IMG/VR virus record: IMGVR_UViG_3300007523_000056
Span: 1-29,040 of that record
DNA: 29,040 bases
Reading direction: 5' to 3' (one strand)
From: a virus
Shown: positions 17,326-26,764 of the stretch, piece by piece
Position numbering within the stretch: the first letter of the stretch is position 1
How the letters are laid out: every line of letters starts with the position of its first letter
The notes under the pieces: generated by a model
Database searches by the model: none
What the model saw: only the letters and a program-made list of their open reading frames with translations
What the model was told of the DNA's origin: nothing
Made by a program: the position numbers and the translations under genes

Positions 17326-18384
17326 ATGAAAGCATTAGGAACTTACATATTTGCAGGCGGTTTTACTTTAGGTGTAAAAAAACACTTTGACGTTGAAGCT
17401 CATTTTGAAATGAATCCGGGTTTATATAAAAAAACAGCGAAAGCTAACTTCCCTGATTTACCAATTTATGAAGGCGAAGATGAATGGCCTCGAAAAAAAT
17501 ATAAAGATAAAATTGATTTTGTGTACTGTAATCCACCGTGTGCTCCCTGGTCGAACTTAGGTACGACACAAAAAGGTGGAATGGCCTGGAAAAACGACCC
17601 TAGGATCGCTTGTTGGAGGAATAGTTTTAATCTATTAAAAGAACTAAGACCTTCGGCAATAGCCATCGAGTCGGTTCCTAGGGTTTATTCTAAAAATGGT
17701 GGATACGAAATGATTATGGAATTAACTAAAGAAGCTCATAAGTTAGGATATCAAACTACTCATTTATTAATAGATGGTCAGTTTACAGGTCTTAATCATA
17801 GTCGTAAAAGATTTTTCTTTATAGCAACTAAATATAATTTAAATCCACACAAATTAAACTTTGCACCTTCTCCAACTACAGGGGAAGTTTTAGAATCATT
17901 TAAAAAAGAACACGGAGATGATATAGGTCACATATTTAAAATGACACCAAGTGAGATCCCTTATTTAAAAGATTGTAAACAAGGTGAAAGTTTAAGAACT
18001 ACTTGGGAAAGATTCAATCCACCTGAAACTTGGGTCAGAGGAGGAATGAGAGGAGGAGTTAAAGGTAGACCTCAGTTTATGAAATGGAGATTAGCTACAC
18101 ATAAAATTTGTCCAGTTATTGCAGGAGGATTTTATATTCACCCCACAGAAGATAGATTATTTGGTCATAAAGAATTAGCTTACCTTGCAGGATTTCCTCA
18201 TGATTTTAAATTTGAAGGACCAGTAGGATCTATAGGATCACAAATTGCACGAGGAGTAATGCCACCTGTAGCTGAATATGTAGCGAGGATAGTAAAAGAG
18301 AGTATAACTAATAAAGATAAACCGAAAGAAGAACATATGACTGTAGACTTTAGAAAAGCACCAGAGCAAGAAAGATTAATTTGA
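17326..18384 (+). CDS. C5-cytosine DNA methyltransferase homologue
   Basis: This 352-aa protein has the C5-MTase motif order: motif I TYIFAGGFTLGVKKHF near the N-terminus (SAM binding); motif IV NPPCAPWS with the candidate nucleophile Cys72; motif VI IESVPR, in which Glu115 is kept but the usual Asn of ENV is Ser116; motif VIII NHSRKRF at about 157-163; and motif X IGSQIARGVMPPVAEYV near the end. A region between VIII and X could be a reduced target-recognition domain. It would methylate cytosine C5 in DNA, for self-protection or for modification. The variant ENV motif and the neighbouring base-modification genes leave open a changed reaction. It starts a run of overlapping genes; its TGA overlaps the next start as TTGA. 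Confidence 0.75.
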   Translation: MKALGTYIFAGGFTLGVKKHFDVEAHFEMNPGLYKKTAKANFPDLPIYEGEDEWPRKKYKDKIDFVYCNPPCAPWSNLGTTQKGGMAWKNDPRIACWRNSFNLLKELRPSAIAIESVPRVYSKNGGYEMIMELTKEAHKLGYQTTHLLIDGQFTGLNHSRKRFFFIATKYNLNPHKLNFAPSPTTGEVLESFKKEHGDDIGHIFKMTPSEIPYLKDCKQGESLRTTWERFNPPETWVRGGMRGGVKGRPQFMKWRLATHKICPVIAGGFYIHPTEDRLFGHKELAYLAGFPHDFKFEGPVGSIGSQIARGVMPPVAEYVARIVKESITNKDKPKEEHMTVDFRKAPEQERLI

Positions 18385-18827
18385 CACATCCAGATATATT
18401 TAATTTACACGAGGATTTATTAGGAGATATAAATAAGTTTCATAATAAATTTGGATTTAAAAAAAGTCAAAAAGTAGGAATACCAGAAGATTCAGAATTA
18501 GTTAATTTTAGAACTTCATTCTTAATGGAGGAGTTAGCAGAATATACTCAAGCAATAACCAAAAAAGATGATGCTGCAGCCTTAGATGCTCTTATAGATA
18601 TAGTTTATATTGCATTAGGCACAGCTTGGCTATTTAATTTACCTTTTGAAAAAGGGTGGAGAGAAGTACAAAAAGCTAATATGAGTAAAGTAAGAGCAAA
18701 AAGTAAATCTAAAAAACGTGGAACTGCTTTTGATGTAATCAAACCTAAAGATTGGAAAGCTCCTAACATAGATAGAATTGTAGAGGAAGAGAAAGAAATA
18801 AATGAAAATTTTAATAACAGGATTTAA
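18381..18827 (+). CDS. MazG-like all-alpha NTP pyrophosphohydrolase (possible dCTPase)
   Basis: This 148-aa protein starts with TTG, overlapping the previous stop. The all-alpha NTP-PPase signature is visible as ExxE at Glu51/Glu54 (FLMEELAEYTQ) and DxxxD at Asp69/Asp73 (LDALIDIVYIALG), the four acidic residues that bind Mg. These enzymes split NTPs or dNTPs to the monophosphate plus PPi. The superfamily includes MazG, dimeric dUTPases and T4 gp56-like dCTPase/dUTPase. Its place directly before a glycosyltransferase-like protein, a dNMP kinase and a dCMP-hydroxymethylase-like enzyme suggests that it destroys dCTP and supplies dCMP. A ppGpp or general dNTP role is the alternative. Confidence 0.75.
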   Translation: MTHPDIFNLHEDLLGDINKFHNKFGFKKSQKVGIPEDSELVNFRTSFLMEELAEYTQAITKKDDAAALDALIDIVYIALGTAWLFNLPFEKGWREVQKANMSKVRAKSKSKKRGTAFDVIKPKDWKAPNIDRIVEEEKEINENFNNRI

Positions 18828-19836
18828 TGCCCTTACTATAGGAACTGCAAAAAGTCCTTTAAACATTGCAACGTCTGCTAGAATATTACCGGGTGTATTG
18901 AGAGATCAAGGCCACGAAGTAACTCAAAAAGCTATTATACCAGGGGAAGATGTATCTCAATATGATAAAGTAATAGTCTATGTATTCGGACCTAATAGTT
19001 TATCAGCTCGTTATTGGTACGGTGCCGCTTATACTATTATTAAAAGACCTGATGCTATTATATCAATAGACGATCATCAAACTAAAGAAACAGTATCTGG
19101 CTTTGGAACTTTTAGTAGAGGACATTGGAGAATATGGAAAAAGTTTTCTCAAGCAGGAAATCCAGTAGGTAAAATGTATTGGGAAGAAGCTCAACCTTAT
19201 AAAAAAGAAATTGAAGATTTAGTAGATACTTTTGCTTTTAAAGAGTGGCCTTACAAATTATTAATTCCAGCATATGATGGTGGTAACTACGAAGCCCTAG
19301 GAATAAAAGCTAAAGAAATAATTAATTGGGATCCTTCTGCTTATACTAATTCCTATTTACAAGACCCTAAAGGTATAGATTTATTTAGTAACGAACCAAT
19401 CGTTGAAAAAGAAAAAGCTTGGGTTATGGCTAGTCTTTTAAATAAAATGAATTGGTTAAAAAAACAAACTTTTACTTGGCCTATTAAAACTTTTGGAAAT
19501 ATTAAAGAAGGTCAAATTAGATTAAAAGAACACGAGTTATATCAAGAGTATAGAAAACACTGGGGTATATTAAGTCCTCCACATTCTCATACTTTAAATG
19601 GAAGCGGTTGGTGGAGAGTTAGATATAATATGGCTTATGATGCTGGCTCTTTATTATTAGGTCACCCTTCAGAAACTAAAGTATTAGGTGATGGATATAA
19701 TATTGAAGTAAATAATATAGAAAAGAAAACTGAACAAGAATTAAAAGAAATGGTATCTTACCAAAGAGAAAGTTTTATAAAGAATACTTGGAATAAAGAA
19801 AGAACGAAAGAATTTTTTAAATGTCTATTGGAATAG
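18802..19836 (+). CDS. Putative GT-B glycosyltransferase (DNA beta-glucosyltransferase-like)
   Basis: This 344-aa protein begins MKILITGFNALTIGTAKSPL, a Rossmann-like first strand and loop. A second half then begins near residue 228 with IKTFGNIKEGQ, HWGILSPPH, and GSGWWRVRYNMAYDAGSLLL at 267-286. The plan recalls T4 beta-glucosyltransferase: residues 54-92 (YDKVIVYVFGPNS... to IISIDD) resemble its DYDRLIVVNS region, and the WRVRYNMAYDAG segment resembles its LRVWETMASDAV donor-binding helix with a basic residue for UDP. Length is close to T4 beta-GT (351 aa). If correct, it transfers a sugar to hydroxymethylated cytosine in DNA. This comes from recalled sequence, not an alignment; a surface-glycan transferase remains possible. 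It overlaps its neighbours by 26 and 16 bases. Confidence 0.5.
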   Translation: MKILITGFNALTIGTAKSPLNIATSARILPGVLRDQGHEVTQKAIIPGEDVSQYDKVIVYVFGPNSLSARYWYGAAYTIIKRPDAIISIDDHQTKETVSGFGTFSRGHWRIWKKFSQAGNPVGKMYWEEAQPYKKEIEDLVDTFAFKEWPYKLLIPAYDGGNYEALGIKAKEIINWDPSAYTNSYLQDPKGIDLFSNEPIVEKEKAWVMASLLNKMNWLKKQTFTWPIKTFGNIKEGQIRLKEHELYQEYRKHWGILSPPHSHTLNGSGWWRVRYNMAYDAGSLLLGHPSETKVLGDGYNIEVNNIEKKTEQELKEMVSYQRESFIKNTWNKERTKEFFKCLLE

Positions 19837-20393
19837 TAATAGTTGATGGTCCAGATGGAGTGGGTAAAACTACTTTAATAAATCATATTAAAAAAGATAA
19901 TCCTAATTCTTATTATATGCATTTAAGAGTGCATAAAGATATGAAACTTTGGCATACAGCTACTGCTAGATTAGCACAGAAAAAAAGAAAAGAAGGTAAA
20001 CTAGTGTTATTAGATAGGCATTGGCCAAGTGAACAGTGTTATTCTTATATCTATAGATCAGGTCCTGCTTATAATCCTAAATTAATATACGAACAATTAA
20101 AAAATAATGGAACTTTATATGTATGGTGTATTCCTGAAGATACTGAAAGAGTTAAAGAAAACCATAGAATCAATAGAGAAAGACGACATGAAGAATATCC
20201 TGATATTGATGCTGTTGTCGATTATTATTATCAGCATTGGTTTAGTAAGCCTAAAAGGTCTAATTTTTTAAGCGACCTATCTCCATTAAGAGAACGAATT
20301 AATTTTATTAGATATGACTTATTTAAAGATGGTCATAAGTTAGATGAATTTACAAACAAAATAATGGAAAGGCTAATGGTACTACAAATATGA
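19821..20393 (+). CDS. Thymidylate-kinase-like deoxynucleoside monophosphate kinase
   Basis: This 190-aa protein has a P-loop at residues 10-18 (GPDGVGKTT) and the Asp65-Arg66 pair in LLDRHWPSEQCYSY, both typical of thymidylate kinases and related dNMP kinases. An Arg-rich lid-like segment (ENHRINRERRHEE) lies at about 133-145. It transfers phosphate from ATP to a deoxynucleoside monophosphate. In the context of the next gene, the natural substrate may be 5-hydroxymethyl-dCMP, as for T4 gp1, which acts on hmdCMP though from a different branch of the kinases. dTMP kinase activity is the simpler alternative. Its stop overlaps the next start as ATGA. Confidence 0.75.
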   Translation: MSIGIVIVDGPDGVGKTTLINHIKKDNPNSYYMHLRVHKDMKLWHTATARLAQKKRKEGKLVLLDRHWPSEQCYSYIYRSGPAYNPKLIYEQLKNNGTLYVWCIPEDTERVKENHRINRERRHEEYPDIDAVVDYYYQHWFSKPKRSNFLSDLSPLRERINFIRYDLFKDGHKLDEFTNKIMERLMVLQI

Positions 20394-21202
20394 ATAAAAT
20401 AAATTTAGACTATAGGGAGAAAATGAAAGAGATTACAAAGAATCCAGAGTATGTATCTTCACCTAGAGGACTAAAAATAGCAGAAGTATTAAATGATTCT
20501 TTTAGTTGCGATATGGATTGTCCTATTATTACTTTAGAGAGTAGAAATTTAAATTATAGTTTTATGACTGGAGAAGCAGCCTGGATGTTAGACGGTCGTA
20601 ATGATGTAAAAACTATTTCATCTTTTATGAAAGGTATAGTTAGATTTAGTGATGACGGTATATACTTCTTCGGAGCATATGGTCCAAAAATAGTAAGTCA
20701 ACTTCAATATGTACTTAGAACTTTAAAAGCTGATCAAGATAGTAGGCAAGCTGTAATTAATATATGGAGAGAGAGTCCTGGATCCAGTAAAGATATTCCT
20801 TGTACTTTATCTTTACAATTTTTATTAAGAAAATCTAGTGATAAGTTATGGTTACACACGATAGCTACTATGAGAAGTAACGATGTTTGGTTAGGACTTC
20901 CTTACGATAGTTTTAATTTTAGTGCTATATCTTTTTATTTAGCTTGTCTTTTAAGAAGTAATGCAATTTTTTGTGATTTAGGTAAGCTTACTATTAACGC
21001 AGGTAGTCGTCATGTATATGAAAGTGATTTTGAAAAAGTTAAAAATGCACTAGTCATAGAAGATTCTTTTCCTTTAGACTTTAGTTTTAATAACTTAATT
21101 AATCAATATTGTGGAAGACCAGATCAATTTATTAAAGGTCTCTACGAAGCGGCAGGAAGTAAATTTATGTTACCTGAGAATAAATTTGAAATTATACAGT
21201 AA
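20390..21202 (+). CDS. ThyA-fold dCMP hydroxymethylase-like enzyme
   Basis: This 270-aa thymidylate-synthase-fold enzyme keeps the nucleophile Cys138 (IPCTLSLQF), the phosphate-binding Arg119 (QDSRQAVINIW), Arg162 and Asp165 in MRSNDVWLGLPYD, and the His/Tyr pair in SRHVYESDF. At the position of E. coli ThyA Asn177, which selects dUMP (LPFN), it has Asp173 (LPYD). T4 dCMP hydroxymethylase gp42 also has Asp there, in MRSNDVVFGFRND, and shares the MRSNDV string. The conserved Trp-containing QWR segment of ThyA is replaced by GAYGPKI, and the C-terminus diverges. Expected reaction: dCMP plus methylene-tetrahydrofolate to 5-hydroxymethyl-dCMP. A dCMP methylase, as in phage XP12, is the alternative. 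It is tightly coupled to a dNMP kinase and dCMP deaminase. Confidence 0.7.
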   Translation: MNKINLDYREKMKEITKNPEYVSSPRGLKIAEVLNDSFSCDMDCPIITLESRNLNYSFMTGEAAWMLDGRNDVKTISSFMKGIVRFSDDGIYFFGAYGPKIVSQLQYVLRTLKADQDSRQAVINIWRESPGSSKDIPCTLSLQFLLRKSSDKLWLHTIATMRSNDVWLGLPYDSFNFSAISFYLACLLRSNAIFCDLGKLTINAGSRHVYESDFEKVKNALVIEDSFPLDFSFNNLINQYCGRPDQFIKGLYEAAGSKFMLPENKFEIIQ

Positions 21203-21684
21203 TGGATAACTATAGAATTCCAGCTGATTGGTATTTTTTAAAAATGGCTTTTCTAGCCGCAGAAAGGGCTACTTGTGTTCGTAGAAAGGTAGGCTGTATT
21301 TTAATTAATTCTAAGAATCATATAATAGCTACTGGATATAACGGAGTAGCAAGTGGTCAAGATCACTGTATTGATAACCCTTGTAAAGGAGCTGACTTTA
21401 AATCAGGGGAAGGATTAGATGTATGTCAAGCTATTCACGCAGAACAAAATGCATTACTTCAGTGTAAAGATGTATATGACATACAAAGTGTTTATTGTAC
21501 CGTTAGTCCTTGTATTCATTGTATTAAATTACTTTTAAATACTTCCGCTACACAAATTATATTTGGAGAAAAATATATAGATTGCGAAGTTCTAGGAGAT
21601 TACTGGATGAAGAACAAAATAAAAGGTACAGGAACTTCTTGGTCTTACATCAATAAAAATTTGATTTTAGGCAAAGTAAATTAG
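21202..21684 (+). CDS. dCMP deaminase (zinc-dependent)
   Basis: This 160-aa protein has the cytidine/deoxycytidylate deaminase motifs: HAEQNALLQC (Zn-binding His plus catalytic Glu) and SPCIHC (two Zn-binding Cys), with TGYNGVASGQDHC upstream as in ComEB-type dCMP deaminases. It converts dCMP to dUMP. In T4 the same enzyme works beside dCMP hydroxymethylase and balances T against hydroxymethyl-C. No thymidylate synthase with the normal Asn is present in this window, so dUMP would go to a host or off-window enzyme. The ATG overlaps the preceding TAA (TAATG) and the stop overlaps the polymerase GTG (TAGTG). Confidence 0.9.
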   Translation: MDNYRIPADWYFLKMAFLAAERATCVRRKVGCILINSKNHIIATGYNGVASGQDHCIDNPCKGADFKSGEGLDVCQAIHAEQNALLQCKDVYDIQSVYCTVSPCIHCIKLLLNTSATQIIFGEKYIDCEVLGDYWMKNKIKGTGTSWSYINKNLILGKVN

Positions 21685-23525
21685 TGTTTAACACAAATAA
21701 AATAGATGAAGCTAAACTAATAGCTATAGATACAGAGACCTGTGATCCTAATTTAAAAACTATGGGACCAGGTGGATTTAGAAAAGATGGTCATATTGCA
21801 GGAATATCTATTGCGACAGACAGTAACTATAATGAATACTTTCCAATAGGCCATGAGGGTGGAGGAAATTTAAATAAAGCTAAAGTAATTGAATTTATGG
21901 ATTATATCTATAAATCTAATAAAAAGCTTATATTTGCTAATGCAATGTATGACTTAGAGTGGCTTTATTCACTGGATAATCGTCTTACCCTTACTAGACA
22001 TCACTCTATTCTAGACGTTCAAACGATAGAACATCTAATAGACGAAAATAAATTAAAGTACTCATTAGATAGTCTTTCTAATTATTATTTAAAAAAATCT
22101 AAGTATGAAGTGGAACTTAAAGAGGCTGTACTATTTAAATTTGGTAAACGTGCCAAAGTAAAAGAAAGTATGTGGAGGCTTCACGCAAACGAAGTTAGTG
22201 AGTATGCTAAAGAAGATGCTTTACTTACTTTAGGTATTTATCAAAAACAACAAGACCGGATTAAAAAAGAAGAAATAGAAAGTATTGTTGACTTTGAATC
22301 TAGACTTATTCCTGTTTTATTTCATATGAGAAGAAAAGGGGTTAAAGTCGATGTTAATAAAGCACATAAAATTTACGATGAACTAGAAAAAAAACAAAAT
22401 GAAGTTCAATCAATGCTAAATAGACTAGGAGGTGCCGAAGTTAATGTATGGGCTAACGCCTCTTTAAAGGAAGCATATGATAAAAATAGTATTAGTTATA
22501 GTCACACAGCAAAGGGTACTCCATCTTTCACTGCGAGTTGGTTGGAAACTCAAATGGATGATGTTAGTAAAAGTATCTTAAAAGTTAGGAAGTTAGATAA
22601 AATTAGAAATACATTTGTAAAGAATATGATTATTGATAAAGCTTCTAATGGAAGAATATACTGTGGCTTTAATCCAATGGGAACTGTTACAGGTAGATTT
22701 AGTTCTCAATATCCTAATCTTCAACAAGTACCAGCTAGAGATCCAGAACTTGGACCGTTGATCAGAAGTTTATTTATACCAGAAGAAGGTGAAGAATGGG
22801 TTTGTGCCGATTATTCTCAACAAGAACCTAGAGTATTAGTTCATTATGCTAGTCTTAAAGGAATGGATACGGCTATTAAAGTTCAAGATGAATTTAATAA
22901 AAATGAAGATACAGACTTTCATCAGATGGTAGCAACTATGGCAAGTATACCTAGGAAACAAGCTAAGACTATTAATCTAGGCTTATTTTATGGAATGGGA
23001 AATAAAAAATTAGCTTCGGAGTTAGGATTAGATCAAGATGATGCCGCTGCCTTGTTTAATAGATATCATGATAAAGTTCCTTTTGTAAAAGAGTTATCTA
23101 GACAGGTATCTAATGTGGCAAGTTCAAGAGGATATATTAAAACTTTATTAGGAAGAAAAAGAAGATTCAATCTATGGGAACCTAGAGATAGTTGGGGAGA
23201 AAAAGCATATTCATTATCTGAGGCTTACTCTCATTACCCTAAACAAGAACTTAAACGAGCTTATACTCATACGGCAATGAATGCTTTAATTCAAGGTTCT
23301 GCCGCTGATATTACAAAGTCAGCTATGATAAAAATATATGAAGCAGGTCTACTAGATGAGATTGATTTAAAACTTACAGTTCATGATGAATTAGATTTTT
23401 CAGTTTCTAAAGATAAACAAAAATGTTTTGATGAAAGTTTACAAATCATGAAAACTTGTGTAGATTTGAAAGTGCCCCTTAAGGTAGATGTCGAGAAAGG
23501 AGACAATTGGGGAACGATAAAATAA
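21684..23525 (+). CDS. polA: Family A DNA polymerase with 3'-5' exonuclease
   Basis: This 613-aa protein has an N-terminal DEDDy exonuclease domain (DTET at 16-19, Asp90 in NAMYDLEWL, Tyr174/Asp178 in YAKED) and a C-terminal Pol I domain: motif A CADYSQQEPRV with Asp376, motif B RKQAKTINLGLFYG with Arg424, Lys428 and Tyr436, and motif C VHDE at 566-569. The residue equivalent to E. coli Phe762 is Leu432. There is no 5'-3' nuclease domain, as in T7-type phage polymerases. It replicates the phage genome and would have to accept modified dCTP if the neighbouring modification genes act as proposed. It begins with GTG overlapping the deaminase stop; the next gene abuts directly. Confidence 0.95.
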   Translation: MFNTNKIDEAKLIAIDTETCDPNLKTMGPGGFRKDGHIAGISIATDSNYNEYFPIGHEGGGNLNKAKVIEFMDYIYKSNKKLIFANAMYDLEWLYSLDNRLTLTRHHSILDVQTIEHLIDENKLKYSLDSLSNYYLKKSKYEVELKEAVLFKFGKRAKVKESMWRLHANEVSEYAKEDALLTLGIYQKQQDRIKKEEIESIVDFESRLIPVLFHMRRKGVKVDVNKAHKIYDELEKKQNEVQSMLNRLGGAEVNVWANASLKEAYDKNSISYSHTAKGTPSFTASWLETQMDDVSKSILKVRKLDKIRNTFVKNMIIDKASNGRIYCGFNPMGTVTGRFSSQYPNLQQVPARDPELGPLIRSLFIPEEGEEWVCADYSQQEPRVLVHYASLKGMDTAIKVQDEFNKNEDTDFHQMVATMASIPRKQAKTINLGLFYGMGNKKLASELGLDQDDAAALFNRYHDKVPFVKELSRQVSNVASSRGYIKTLLGRKRRFNLWEPRDSWGEKAYSLSEAYSHYPKQELKRAYTHTAMNALIQGSAADITKSAMIKIYEAGLLDEIDLKLTVHDELDFSVSKDKQKCFDESLQIMKTCVDLKVPLKVDVEKGDNWGTIK

Positions 23526-24788
23526 ATGAAAATAGGTTTTTTAGGACTAGGAAAATTAGGTCTTCCTGTAGCTCTTGCTATTGAAAGCAAAGGTCATCAA
23601 GTTTTAGGAACTGATATTAATGATTTAACTTTAAGAAATATTAGATTTAAAACCATTAATTATAAAGAAAAAGGTGCAGAAGAGCTACTAAAAAAATCTC
23701 AAATTCAATTAAAAACTTTAGATAAAATTGTAAAAGAAAGTGATATAATCTTTGTCCCAATTCAAACTCCACATGAAGAAAAATATGAGGGTATTACTAG
23801 AATACCAGACGAACGTGCAGACTTTAATTACGAATTTTTAATCAACGGAATAAAGGAACTCAATGAAGAAATCGAAAAACAAAAGAAAGATAAAACGGTT
23901 ATTATTATTTCTACTGTCTTGCCCGGTACTATTTCAAGACTTATTAAACCAATTTTGGGCTCTCACTTAAAACTTTGTTATAATCCGTTCTTTATAGCAA
24001 TGGGAACTACTATCAAAGATTTTTTAAAATCAGAAATAATTTTATTTGGAGTAGACAATGAAGAAGCAGCTAAGCAAGCAGAAGAATTTTATAAGACTAT
24101 TAATGATACACCTTTTTTTAAGACAACTATTGAGAACGCAGAATTAATTAAAGTAGTTTATAATACTTTTATATCCACTAAGATTGCTATGATCAATACA
24201 GTTATGGAAACATGTCATCATTTACCTAATACGGATGTTGATGAAGTAACGAGAGCTTTATCTTTATGTACTGACAGAATTATTAGTCCTAAATATTTAT
24301 CAGGAGGAATGGGAGATGGAGGAGGTTGTCACCCTAGAGATAATATAGCTCTCAGTTACTTAGCTCAGAAATTAAATCTTTCATACAATTGGTATGACGG
24401 AATCATGAAACAAAGAGAACAACAAACAGTGTGGTTAGCTAATCTTTGTATTAAACATGCAAAAGGTAAAAAAATAAATATATTAGGAAAATGTTTTAAA
24501 CCTGAAACTAATTTAACTTTAGGAAGCCCGAGTATATTATTAAAAAATATATTAGAAGAAAGAGGACAAGAAGTAGTTATGTGGGATCCCTGGGTTGACG
24601 ATAATGACATTATGAAAGTTAAAGATAAATACGAATGGGATAAAGTTCCTCAACTATTTTTTATTGGAACTAAACACGAAGTATGGCATGAGTTTTTTTT
24701 CATGAAAGATTCAGTAGTCATTGATCCATTTAGATATTTAGAAGTATCTGATACTGTAAATTATATACCAATAGGAAAAAACGTATGA
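23526..24788 (+). CDS. UDP-glucose/GDP-mannose-type 6-dehydrogenase
   Basis: This 420-aa protein has an N-terminal NAD-binding site (GFLGLGKLGLPVALAI), FVPIQTPH at the second nucleotide contact, ISTVLPGTI, the central helix with Asn213 and Lys219 (NTFISTKI), and the catalytic loop GGMGDGGGCHPRDN with Cys268 (the usual GxGxGGxCxxKD, here Arg for Lys). The C-terminal sugar-nucleotide domain follows (KKINILGKCFKPETN). The family oxidises the C6 hydroxyl of a UDP- or GDP-sugar to a carboxylate in two NAD-dependent steps, for example UDP-glucose to UDP-glucuronate. Exact substrate is unclear. It abuts the polymerase gene and overlaps NAD synthetase as ATGA, so it is part of the same expression unit. 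Confidence 0.85.
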   Translation: MKIGFLGLGKLGLPVALAIESKGHQVLGTDINDLTLRNIRFKTINYKEKGAEELLKKSQIQLKTLDKIVKESDIIFVPIQTPHEEKYEGITRIPDERADFNYEFLINGIKELNEEIEKQKKDKTVIIISTVLPGTISRLIKPILGSHLKLCYNPFFIAMGTTIKDFLKSEIILFGVDNEEAAKQAEEFYKTINDTPFFKTTIENAELIKVVYNTFISTKIAMINTVMETCHHLPNTDVDEVTRALSLCTDRIISPKYLSGGMGDGGGCHPRDNIALSYLAQKLNLSYNWYDGIMKQREQQTVWLANLCIKHAKGKKINILGKCFKPETNLTLGSPSILLKNILEERGQEVVMWDPWVDDNDIMKVKDKYEWDKVPQLFFIGTKHEVWHEFFFMKDSVVIDPFRYLEVSDTVNYIPIGKNV

Positions 24789-25549
24789 CACCTTTAGAAA
24801 GAATTAATATAATAAGAAAATGGATATTAGAGTATGTGGAGAGTATGGATAATCCTGCAAATTGTTTAGTAGTAGGTATTTCAGGCGGTATTGATTCTTC
24901 TGTGGTGAGCACTATTTGTGCTATGACAGGTATGAAAACTTTAGTTGTGTCAATGCCTATATCGCAAAGGCCCGAGCATCATGAGTTGGGTATTAAACAT
25001 AAAAACTGGATTACTACAAAATATAAAAATTGTTTTAGTGTAGAAATAGATTTAACTTATACTTTTTTAAATTTTGAAAATCAAATGATTGATATGAAAT
25101 TTAAAGATAAAGTAGGTTTAGCTAATTCAAGAGCAAGAATGAGAATGATGTGTCTCTATCAAGTATCAGCGAGTACGACTGGATTAGTAGTAGGAACAGG
25201 GAATAAGATTGAAGACTTTGGTGTTGGTTTTTTTACAAAGTATGGAGATGGAGGGGTTGATATTTCTCCTATTGCAGATTGTACTAAATCAGAAGTATGG
25301 GCGATGGCTAAAGAATTACATATCCTAGAAGAAATACAAATGGCTGAACCCACCGATGGATTGTGGAATGACGGACGTAGTGACATTGATCAATTAGGTA
25401 TGACTTACTCTCAAATAGAATATTTAATGAAAAATCCAGGTGAACCTGAATATCAAAAGTATCTTAAAATTAGAAAGAAGAATTTACATAAAATGAAATC
25501 AATCCCTGTATGTAAGTTTGATGGAAAAACAAATCTGGCAAACGATTAG
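24785..25549 (+). CDS. nadE: NH3-dependent NAD synthetase
   Basis: This 254-aa protein is an N-type ATP pyrophosphatase. SGGIDSS at 33-39 is the PP-loop, and GTGNKIEDFGVGFFTKYGDGG at about 137-157, PIADCTKSEV, and EPTDGLWNDGRSDIDQLGM are the NadE signatures. It adenylates and amidates nicotinic acid adenine dinucleotide to NAD. There is no N-terminal glutaminase domain, so it uses free ammonia; length is close to that of short bacterial NadE (about 275 aa). It sits between an NAD-consuming sugar dehydrogenase and a nuclease. The phage may need NAD for sugar oxidation or to offset host NAD loss during defence. Confidence 0.9.
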   Translation: MTPLERINIIRKWILEYVESMDNPANCLVVGISGGIDSSVVSTICAMTGMKTLVVSMPISQRPEHHELGIKHKNWITTKYKNCFSVEIDLTYTFLNFENQMIDMKFKDKVGLANSRARMRMMCLYQVSASTTGLVVGTGNKIEDFGVGFFTKYGDGGVDISPIADCTKSEVWAMAKELHILEEIQMAEPTDGLWNDGRSDIDQLGMTYSQIEYLMKNPGEPEYQKYLKIRKKNLHKMKSIPVCKFDGKTNLAND

Positions 25550-25910
25550 ATCCAAACTAAACGATTTTTTTATTCAACGTATTGAAACTTCGATTGAACG
25601 AGGAATTCCAGATGTTCACTATTGTGTTGATGGAGTTTCTGGTTGGCTAGAAGGAAAGTATCTACAGTCTCCTAAACGAGAAAACACTAAACTAAAATTA
25701 AAATTGAGTATAGAGCAAATGGCCTGGCACAAATCTTATAAACACAATGGAGGAATTGTTTATTTAATTGTTAAAAAAGATAAACAAATTTATTTATTTG
25801 ATAGTAATGACGGAGAAGCTTTAGCAAAAGGAGTAAGTCGAGATGATTGGGAGAAAATGGCTTTAGCGAAAGATTGGGAAAATCTTAAAAAAATATTGAG
25901 TAAAAAATGA
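25521..25910 (+). CDS. VRR-NUC-like PD-(D/E)XK nuclease
   Basis: I start at ATG 25521 (129 aa); a TTG one codon upstream is also possible. The nuclease core reads ETSIERGIPDVHYCVDG with Asp31 in GIPD, then GWLEGK with Glu44 and Lys46, followed by a downstream helix (LSIEQMAWHKSYKHNGG) and IVYLIVKK. This GIPD...ExK...Q pattern is that of VRR-NUC and related small phage endonucleases, which cut branched or structured DNA. It overlaps nadE by 29 bases and the epimerase gene by 4 (ATGA). Specific substrate unknown. Confidence 0.7.
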   Translation: MEKQIWQTIRSKLNDFFIQRIETSIERGIPDVHYCVDGVSGWLEGKYLQSPKRENTKLKLKLSIEQMAWHKSYKHNGGIVYLIVKKDKQIYLFDSNDGEALAKGVSRDDWEKMALAKDWENLKKILSKK

Positions 25911-26764
25911 AAACTGTTGTGGTTATAGGTGGTTGTGGTTTTGTTGGAAGCAATTTGGTTCAATACTTAATTAATAAAAACTACACTGTAATTGTTATTG
26001 ATAATGAATATTCAGGTGTAAGAAAATTTAAACAAGTCTTGTATATTAGAGATAATTCTATTAACATCAGTTCTATTTTAAAAAAGTTAAAGATACATAC
26101 TATTTTTCATTTTGGAGAATTTTCAAGAATAAATCAAAGTTTTTATAAAACAGAAGATTGTTTAGATTTTAATATAAAAGGAACTTTAGAAGTTGTTAAA
26201 TACTGTAGTAAAAACAACGTTAAATTAGTGTATTCAGCTTCATCAAGTACTTTTAATAACAAAGAAAATCTATCTCCTTATGCTTATAGTAAGTTTCACA
26301 ATGTTAATTTAATTAAGAACTACCATAAATGGTTTAATCTTAAATATGAAATTGTTTATTTCTTTAATGTTTATGGACCCGGTCAAATTGGTACTGGTAA
26401 TATGGCAACTGTTGTGGGGATATTTGAAGATCAATATAGAAATAATAAACCATTAACTGTTGTTAAACCGGGAACTCAAAGAAGAAACTTTACTCATATA
26501 GATGATATAGTTAATGGAATATATAAAGCATGGAAGAAGAATTTAAATAAAGAATACATGTTAGGAAATGAAAAAAGTTATAGTGTAATTGAAGTTGCTA
26601 AAATGTTTAATCATAAAATTAAATTTATTAAAGAACAAAAAGGAGAAAGATTTAAGTCTGTTAAAATAAATAACAAAAACAATAAGTTTTTGAATTTTAA
26701 AGCAAAAATTAACTTAAAAAACTATATAAAAACTTTGGAACATAAAGAGAATTTTATTGTCTAA
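25907..26764 (+). CDS. NAD-dependent sugar-nucleotide epimerase/dehydratase (extended SDR)
   Basis: This 285-aa protein is an extended short-chain dehydrogenase. GGCGFVGSNL at 8-17 binds NAD; Ser residues at 110-114 and Tyr125-Lys129 (YAYSK) form the catalytic set; FNVYGPGQIGTGN and RRNFTHIDDIVNGI are the substrate-side motifs of GalE/RmlB-type enzymes. It would epimerise or dehydrate a nucleotide-linked hexose. Together with the 6-dehydrogenase upstream it could convert UDP-glucose to UDP-glucuronate and then to an epimer such as UDP-galacturonate, but the substrate cannot be read from sequence. It is slightly short for the family (usually 310-340 aa), mainly at the C-terminus. It ends the long run of overlapping genes; a promoter-like site and hairpin follow. 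Confidence 0.85.
   Translation: MKTVVVIGGCGFVGSNLVQYLINKNYTVIVIDNEYSGVRKFKQVLYIRDNSINISSILKKLKIHTIFHFGEFSRINQSFYKTEDCLDFNIKGTLEVVKYCSKNNVKLVYSASSSTFNNKENLSPYAYSKFHNVNLIKNYHKWFNLKYEIVYFFNVYGPGQIGTGNMATVVGIFEDQYRNNKPLTVVKPGTQRRNFTHIDDIVNGIYKAWKKNLNKEYMLGNEKSYSVIEVAKMFNHKIKFIKEQKGERFKSVKINNKNNKFLNFKAKINLKNYIKTLEHKENFIV

Follow-up and report, generated by a model that had tools for sequence, protein, structure and literature searches.

The dehydrogenase gene and its neighbors

In a marine virus of bacteria, a gene for a nucleotide-sugar 6-dehydrogenase (UGD) directly follows a DNA polymerase gene, which raises the question of whether its product supplies a sugar for phage DNA. The window analyzed here is a whole stretch of 29,040 nucleotides. 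Since DNA-sugar enzymes and a uronate-forming enzyme are predicted within one gene row, an acidic sugar of an unusual kind may be present on the DNA. We consider it reasonably likely that the row at 17326-26764 serves to modify the phage DNA and brings its own supply of sugar, in which UGD would make a UDP-uronic acid and the protein encoded at 18802 would transfer the sugar to hydroxymethylcytosine.

All genes of the row described here are on the plus strand. The polA-like DNA polymerase gene (21684-23525 in the ORF tables) is a core gene and a conserved neighbor in all relatives. As shown by the ORF and gap tables, UGD (23526-24788) starts at the base after the polA stop codon, with a gap of 0. 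It is followed by NadE, an NH3-dependent NAD+ synthase (24785-25549), which overlaps UGD by 4 bases; by the gene of a small PHROG 2165 protein (25518-25910; 4.3e-27), which overlaps NadE by 32 bases and lies outside the sugar pathway; and by a short GalE-like SDR gene (25907-26764), which overlaps the PHROG 2165 gene by 4 bases. The sequence-only reading had described a UDP-sugar 6-dehydrogenase with a retained Cys268 abutting polA, and a GalE-like epimerase two genes on, all linked by overlaps. Both descriptions were confirmed, and UGD was intact. NadE, which lies between UGD and the SDR, was absent from that reading. PHROG 2165 is labeled 'DNA helicase' in PHROGs and VRR in the analysis tables. 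A near-identity DNA search of phage records gave a sole match of 98 bases.

UGD consists of 420 amino acids and contains the Pfam domains PF03721, PF00984 and PF03720 (6.6e-27, 1.3e-18 and 3.8e-7), all above the Pfam cut-offs. It matched PHROG 9148 'UDP-glucose dehydrogenase' (2e-85) and passed the nucleotide-sugar 6-dehydrogenase family TIGR03026 with 215.8 bits (cut-off 189.8). The catalytic Cys is residue 268, within GDGGGCHPRD, and Cys268, Lys209, Asn213 and Asp272 were invariant in 12 aligned sequences. The cut-offs of the equivalogs AglM (168 vs 670 bits) and TuaD (152 vs 700 bits) were missed. Since UGD is below every equivalog cut-off, UDP-glucose as the substrate is not fixed by the family. 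The product would be a UDP-uronic acid, with UDP-glucuronate as the putative donor. The usual NPEF motif reads NPFFIAMG in UGD, with Phe in place of Glu; this trait, which the sequence-only reading did not mention, is subfamily-wide, including bacterial members, and the subfamily is described by NPFFIAMG / GMGDGGGCHPRD. A changed product tied to NadE was considered for the loss of this Glu and rejected because bacterial UGDs without a nearby NadE share the loss.

Predicted DNA-modification enzymes

The 18802 protein (GTx; 18802-19836) has no known domain and was assigned to PHROG 14998. Its AF2 model (pLDDT 86.8) has a GT-B fold, and its best solved match was T4 DNA beta-glucosyltransferase (BGT; Foldseek, 6.4e-7). 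The top five PDB matches were all T4 BGT (6.4e-7 to 7.1e-6). Comparison of the model with T4 BGT gave a VIA Z of 17.6 and an rmsd of 3.9 with 293 aligned, and SenB and glycogen synthase gave Z values of 16.3-16.6, so that the margin of BGT over SenB was about 1 Z. Asp91 of GTx did not vary among 30 relatives, and its counterpart in the alignment with BGT is Asp100, the residue mutated in 1nzd. GTx has the fold and the catalytic Asp in common with BGT but is not recognizable as BGT by sequence: the profile match was weak (hhalign probability 7%, E 0.0049, 42 columns), as was that with T4 AGT. The model suggests that GTx may be a glycosyltransferase that acts on DNA.

The dCMP hydroxymethylase-like 20390 protein (20390-21202; PF00303) belongs to the thymidylate synthase superfamily, and its best PDB match was the CMP 5-hydroxymethylase 5b6d (1.9e-19). 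Its Asp173 aligned with the Asp of T4 gp42, a member of the same superfamily, and takes the place of the Asn that thymidylate synthase has at this pyrimidine-site position, which points to a dCMP/CMP type. A thymidylate-kinase-like protein (19821-20393; PHROG 761, 2.4e-12; Pfam below cut-off) had no PDB sequence match and is a candidate modified-dNMP kinase. The row also encodes a dCMP deaminase (21202-21684; PF00383, 3.4e-21), a MazG/PRA-PH-like nucleotide pyrophosphohydrolase (18381-18827; PF01503, 1.1e-12) and a C5-cytosine DNA methyltransferase-like protein (17326-18384; PF00145, 8.1e-28). A previous report gave an SPPC motif and a CmoA partner as marks of the CmoX carboxymethyl-cytosine pathway (PMC12783734). 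A pathway of this type was set aside for the 17326 protein, which has NPPC, not SPPC; among the matches of the window genes, CmoA was not noticed.

In the proposed pathway, the 20390 enzyme would form 5-hydroxymethyl-dCMP, the kinase-like protein would help form 5-hydroxymethyl-dC triphosphate, and polA would incorporate the hydroxymethylated nucleotide into DNA. UGD would convert UDP-glucose to UDP-uronic acid, consuming two NAD+, and GTx, as a GT-B enzyme like T4 BGT, would take the uronic acid off UDP and attach it to the hydroxymethyl group, giving a charged sugar on the DNA. NadE may replenish NAD+ for the UGD step during infection, and the SDR, where present, may alter the configuration of the sugar. 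Points against this pathway are the weak profile match and narrow Z margin of GTx, the Phe in the NPEF motif, the substrate left unfixed by the UGD family, and the occurrence of UGD with NadE in phages that lack GTx and hydroxymethylase.

Conservation of the row in related phages

UGD was present in all 27 related contigs that span polA to the PHROG 2165 gene, and the GTx gene in all 24 of those that reach upstream. By these counts, the link between UGD and the modification genes is real. Ascertainment was rejected as the cause of this co-occurrence, because with the helicase as the only query the full row was still found in every site-spanning contig of the lineage. The sequence-only reading had called for a check of co-occurrence with the 18802 and 20390 genes, and where the contigs cover them, we found no related phage with UGD that lacked the glycosyltransferase or the hydroxymethylase.

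A sister clade has an orthologous row of GTx, hydroxymethylase and polA without UGD or NadE; UGD was found at 0 of 9 sites and in 0 of 7 contigs. In this clade the PHROG 2165 gene lies directly 3' of polA, and it marks the UGD/NadE insertion site. A UDP-glucuronate decarboxylase with the motifs STSEVYG and YDEGKR was present in 10/10 of the sister clade, which probably uses UDP-xylose. No decarboxylase was found in seven contigs of the window lineage, where the sole match was a GalE-like SDR (26%). UGD and the decarboxylase catalyze consecutive steps of one pathway and are mutually exclusive between the two clades.

The window SDR matched PF01370 (3.9e-38), and its best PDB matches were UDP-glucose 4-epimerase, another epimerase-domain protein and UDP-glucuronate decarboxylase. 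Its GC content is 23.5% vs 30.7% for the window, and apart from the window it was present in 2 of the 27 related contigs; it is an accessory gene. A function as UDP-xylose synthase was rejected because the TSE motif is missing; SASSSTF and YAYSK are found instead of the decarboxylase motifs TSE and YDEGK. The coupling of sugar enzymes to modification genes, as proposed in the sequence-only reading, was supported for UGD by its conservation, the GTx model and the decarboxylase of the sister clade, and not for the epimerase.

Possible role of NadE

NadE passed the NAD+ synthase equivalog-domain TIGR00552 with 157.2 bits (cut-off 63.65), and NAD+ supply is its most likely role. For NadE only, we also considered an amide-ligase role, in which the uronic acid would be adenylated and then joined to ammonia to give a neutral uronamide donor. 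The chemistry of NadE, in which a carboxylate is adenylated and then receives NH3, suits a uronate, and a phage amide ligase for DNA carboxylates is known (CmoY, PMC12783734). A close NadE was found in 11 distinct named phages, in all of which UGD was at most one gene away, and NadE is scattered across several UGD lineages, with the tree showing 12 changes. Among 75 bacterial UGD loci, a single one had a NadE match, and that was on the other strand. However, besides the passed cut-off, each of six Pelagibacteraceae genomes had just one close match to NadE, with 54-58% identity, which sits between DAHP synthase-like and cysteinyl-tRNA synthetase-like genes. In addition, of the 59 other viral loci with NadE, 39 had no UGD nearby, and among the 27 related contigs NadE was present in 22 and UGD stood without it in 5. 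Because the Pelagibacteraceae locus looks like a housekeeping one and many viral NadE loci lack UGD, uronate amidation is less likely than NAD+ supply, and we consider it unlikely.

UGD and NadE outside the lineage and alternative explanations

UGD and NadE also occur in the unrelated marine phages HTVC008M, Bellamy, S-SSM7 and P-TIM68, among glycosyltransferases, epimerases, methyltransferases or carbamoyltransferases. In marine T4-like HTVC008M and Bellamy, the homologues of UGD (about 35% identical) and of NadE (47-51%) are adjacent or one gene apart and, unlike in the window, lie in multi-gene glycan-type clusters. Searches of the T4-like phages, run with positive controls, found neither a relative of 18802 nor a hydroxymethylase-like match in these four genomes. 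The sequence-only reading had named, as evidence against coupling, a frequent presence of the dehydrogenase and epimerase genes in related phages that lack the modification genes; UGD in the absence of these genes was found in the four unrelated phages and not among the related ones where contigs cover them. Therefore, the UGD-NadE module is mobile and is not in itself reserved for DNA modification. The window UGD falls within the UGDs of Pelagibacteraceae (support 0.989), the putative hosts. The loci of the closest bacterial UGDs, judged by eye, have GT-like neighbors and look like polysaccharide loci, and a surface-sugar role is therefore possible.

These data speak for a rival explanation in which the two enzymes would act on glycans of the surface or the virion, unlinked to DNA. 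UDP-uronic acid would then feed surface glycosyltransferases of the host or phage, which is the likely situation in the T4-like marine phages. For the window we consider this rather improbable, since UGD is inside the replication and modification row in all 27 lineage contigs that span the site and no surface-glycan cluster was seen in the lineage. Glycosyltransferases of PF00534 or PF00535 were absent in two long relatives, and the search with these families found no other glycosyltransferase in G001, G002, G004 and G017. G003 does carry a GT2 gene, and the PHROG 1574 protein of G001 and G002, whose function is not known, might be a further sugar sink. Nor does the rival explanation account for the exchange of UGD and decarboxylase between two clades that have the same GTx. 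That exchange would be expected if both clades used one pentose donor, UDP-xylose, with hosts supplying the decarboxylase to the window clade and UGD to the sister clade, and phage cytosine is known to bear pentoses (PMC13390438, PMC12838424). However, 14 genomes of the presumed Pelagibacteraceae hosts with the closest UGDs gave no good decarboxylase orthologue, with matches to the phage enzyme of at most 33% vs 51-54% identity among the phage decarboxylases, and NadE and the SDR are left unexplained. A shared pentose donor is thus very doubtful, and a uronic acid on DNA is the reading that we retain.

Comparison with known systems

In the literature searched, only one phage carries a glucuronic-type sugar on its DNA. 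This phage, Bacillus phage SP-15, is the closest precedent: it has glucuronolactone on DNA, and its UGD gene is inside the modification cluster, which, like the window, combines a phage UGD with glycosyltransferases, a pyrimidine hydroxymethylase and a dCMP deaminase (PMC5977210). Unlike in the window, a uracil side chain is modified via a phosphodiester plus glucose (PMC5977210). The two UGDs are 28.7% identical, and SP-15 was absent among the GTx matches listed. In T4, the gp42 and BGT genes are neighbors, and their counterparts are near each other in the window; T4 takes UDP-glucose from the host, whereas the window phage has its own sugar-nucleotide enzyme. The arabinosyl-cytosine pathway of RB69/NP also combines phage donor-sugar genes with a thymidylate synthase-superfamily enzyme and glycosyltransferases for a non-glucose sugar on cytosine, but the sugar is a pentose made by a proposed isomerase/kinase/NTP-transferase route, not by UGD, and is placed on 5-hydroxy-dC (PMC6024577, PMC13390438). 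A text search for HY126, the phage behind PDB 9ir0, found no paper.

If the proposed pathway is correct, a uronic acid would be added to the sugars known on hydroxymethylcytosine, and the phages that carry it may have hosts among the commonest bacteria of the ocean. A wider scheme, which we hold only as a tentative possibility, is that a dedicated UGD (and NadE) module gives glucuronic acid or glucuronamide on hydroxymethylcytosine, that xylose serves in the sister clade and galactofuranose or arabinose in other members of the glycosyltransferase family, and that one DNA glycosyltransferase family exchanged donors by swaps of sugar-nucleotide genes. This family would then form a natural series, with a varying donor pathway (dehydrogenase, decarboxylase, mutase, isomerase) and a constant DNA acceptor machinery. 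DNA sugars would be predictable and testable from gene neighborhoods, a route to new enzymes for labeling hydroxymethylcytosine. Distant GTx genes adjoin UDP-galactopyranose mutase, SDRs or an arabinose-5-P isomerase, the last of these next to the PHROG 14998-type gene of Morganella phage Rgz1.

The dehydrogenase is a core member of the modification row

ORF and gap tables placed an NDP-sugar 6-dehydrogenase gene (UGD, 23526-24788) and a short GalE-like gene (SDR, 25907-26764) where the sequence-only reading had put them. UGD starts at the base directly after the polA (21684-23525) stop and is followed in order by an NAD+ synthase gene absent from that reading (NadE, 24785-25549), a small PHROG 2165 gene (25518-25910; VRR in our tables) and the SDR, with overlaps of 4, 32 and 4 bases. 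UGD contained all three Pfam domains and passed the TIGR03026 cut-off, and alignment showed that the previously reported Cys268 was kept together with K209, N213 and D272. Its subfamily is marked by NPFFIAMG, in place of the NPEF of classical enzymes, and by GMGDGGGCHPRD, both common to the bacterial members.

Relatives were gathered with three protein queries (UGD, the 18802 gene and helicase) and then with profiles of helicase, UGD and the 18802 glycosyltransferase-like gene (GTx, 18802-19836, PHROG 14998). Among the 27 window-lineage contigs spanning polA to the PHROG 2165 gene, UGD was found in 27, NadE in 22 and the SDR in 2, and GTx was present in 24/24 of those that also cover its place. 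When contigs were fetched with helicase only, the whole row (MT-MazG-GTx-TMK-HMase-dCD-polA-UGD) was found in every lineage contig spanning the site. On these counts and the helicase-only sets, UGD is a core member of the modification row, NadE is common and the SDR is accessory. The proposed co-occurrence with the 18802 and 20390 genes was supported for UGD and not supported for the SDR. The GC content of the SDR was 23.5%. The row was always headed by the C5-cytosine methyltransferase-like MT gene (17326-18384; motif NPPC).

The GTx protein had no match in Pfam or NCBIfam. A structure model built from 30 relatives (pLDDT 86.8) had a predicted GT-B-like fold, and all five top Foldseek matches were T4 DNA beta-glucosyltransferase (BGT; best 6.4e-7). 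VIA gave Z 17.6 for BGT and 16.6 for the runner-up, SenB. The family-invariant Asp91 aligned with BGT Asp100; by sequence profile alone, the link to BGT was weak. For the 20390 protein (HMase, 20390-21202), the closest solved structure was CMP 5-hydroxymethylase, and an Asp aligned with the T4 gp42 Asp that we take to be the dCMP-selecting residue.

UGD and NadE form a mobile sugar module

NadE passed the NAD+ synthase cut-off and, in the alignment, kept all of what we take to be the deamido-NAD-binding residues of E. coli NadE. UGD was adjacent or one gene off in 11/11 distinct named phages with a close NadE relative, and nearby in 20/59 other viral NadE loci. In viruses, NadE lies beside several separate UGD lineages (L235, L237-L238, L240-L241, L244, L246, L249 and named T4-like phages); in 75 bacterial UGD loci it was not a neighbour, apart from one match on the other strand. 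Our first choice is that NadE supplies NAD+ for UGD. A minority reading is that it amidates the uronate; phage amide ligases acting on DNA are known (PMC12783734).

Against a dedicated role in DNA modification, the UGD and NadE pair was also found inside glycan-type clusters in HTVC008M, Bellamy, S-SSM7, P-TIM68 and others. Searches of these phages with responding positive controls found no GTx and no convincing hydroxymethylase, with one weak partial match (2.7e-4, 642-kb record). Because the pair also occurs in such phages, UGD and NadE are a mobile sugar module that the window lineage tied to the modification row. Among relatives of the phage, G001 and G002 had no PF00534/PF00535 glycosyltransferases and G003 had one PF00535 gene. 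G001 carried a NodU-like carbamoyltransferase (L381:15627-17069, +), and such enzymes can carbamoylate hydroxymethylcytosine (PMC8670742). In G002, a TonB-receptor plug domain gene (L384:4249-5799, -) and a radical-SAM/B12-binding gene (L384:2349-4244, -) were adjacent.

In SP-15, whose DNA carries glucuronolactone, UGD is encoded within the modification cluster (PMC5977210). For arabinosyl-cytosine in RB69/NP and a pentose on Thanatos DNA, the donor genes identified or suggested are phage-encoded (PMC13390438, PMC6024577, PMC12838424). A text search of open-licence literature returned nothing linking UDP-glucuronate decarboxylase to DNA modification in phages.

In the tree, window-lineage UGDs nested within those of Pelagibacteraceae (support 0.989), which suggests that SAR11 may be a present or past host. 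Judged by eye, the Pelagibacteraceae UGDs neighboured glycosyltransferase-like genes and an integrase-like gene. In six Pelagibacteraceae genomes, the only close match to phage NadE (54-58% identical) was flanked, in the two loci read by eye, by DAHP synthase-like and cysteinyl-tRNA synthetase-like genes. Decarboxylase matches in fourteen genomes with such UGDs were at most 33%. Should these be the hosts, this would weigh against the window clade making a pentose as its final sugar.

Sugar donor genes change beside the same predicted glycosyltransferase family

A sister clade had the same row at about 50% identity, with polA followed directly by the PHROG 2165 gene. UGD or NadE was found at this site in 0/9 contigs, and UGD anywhere on the contig in 0/7. 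All 10 contigs covering the place between the exonuclease and helicase genes (L153, L154, L155, L332-L338) had an SDR there with STSEVYG and YDEGKR; for the one compared with solved structures, UDP-glucuronate decarboxylase was closest (5.5e-78). The decarboxylase was found in 0/7 window-lineage contigs, the sole match being a 26% GalE-like SDR of G001. Since UDP-glucuronate is the predicted product of UGD and the substrate of the decarboxylase, the two clades hold neighbouring pathway steps, never both. The contigs compared are linear and may be incomplete, and off-site absence is not final. The decarboxylase beside this row predicts a xylose-type DNA sugar in the sister clade.

Distant GTx genes adjoined UDP-galactopyranose mutase, SDRs or, in Morganella phage Rgz1, arabinose-5-phosphate isomerase. 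Because of these neighbours and the decarboxylase/UGD exchange, we read GTx as one glycosyltransferase family served by varying donor pathways. A GTx homologue was directly followed by the mutase in L348-L350, L357, L358, L363, L365-L369, L371, L374, L377 and DSL-LC01 (L071:11992-14128), commonly accompanied by a TS-like gene, and in some cases by an SDR, upstream; these pairs predict galactofuranose on phage DNA.
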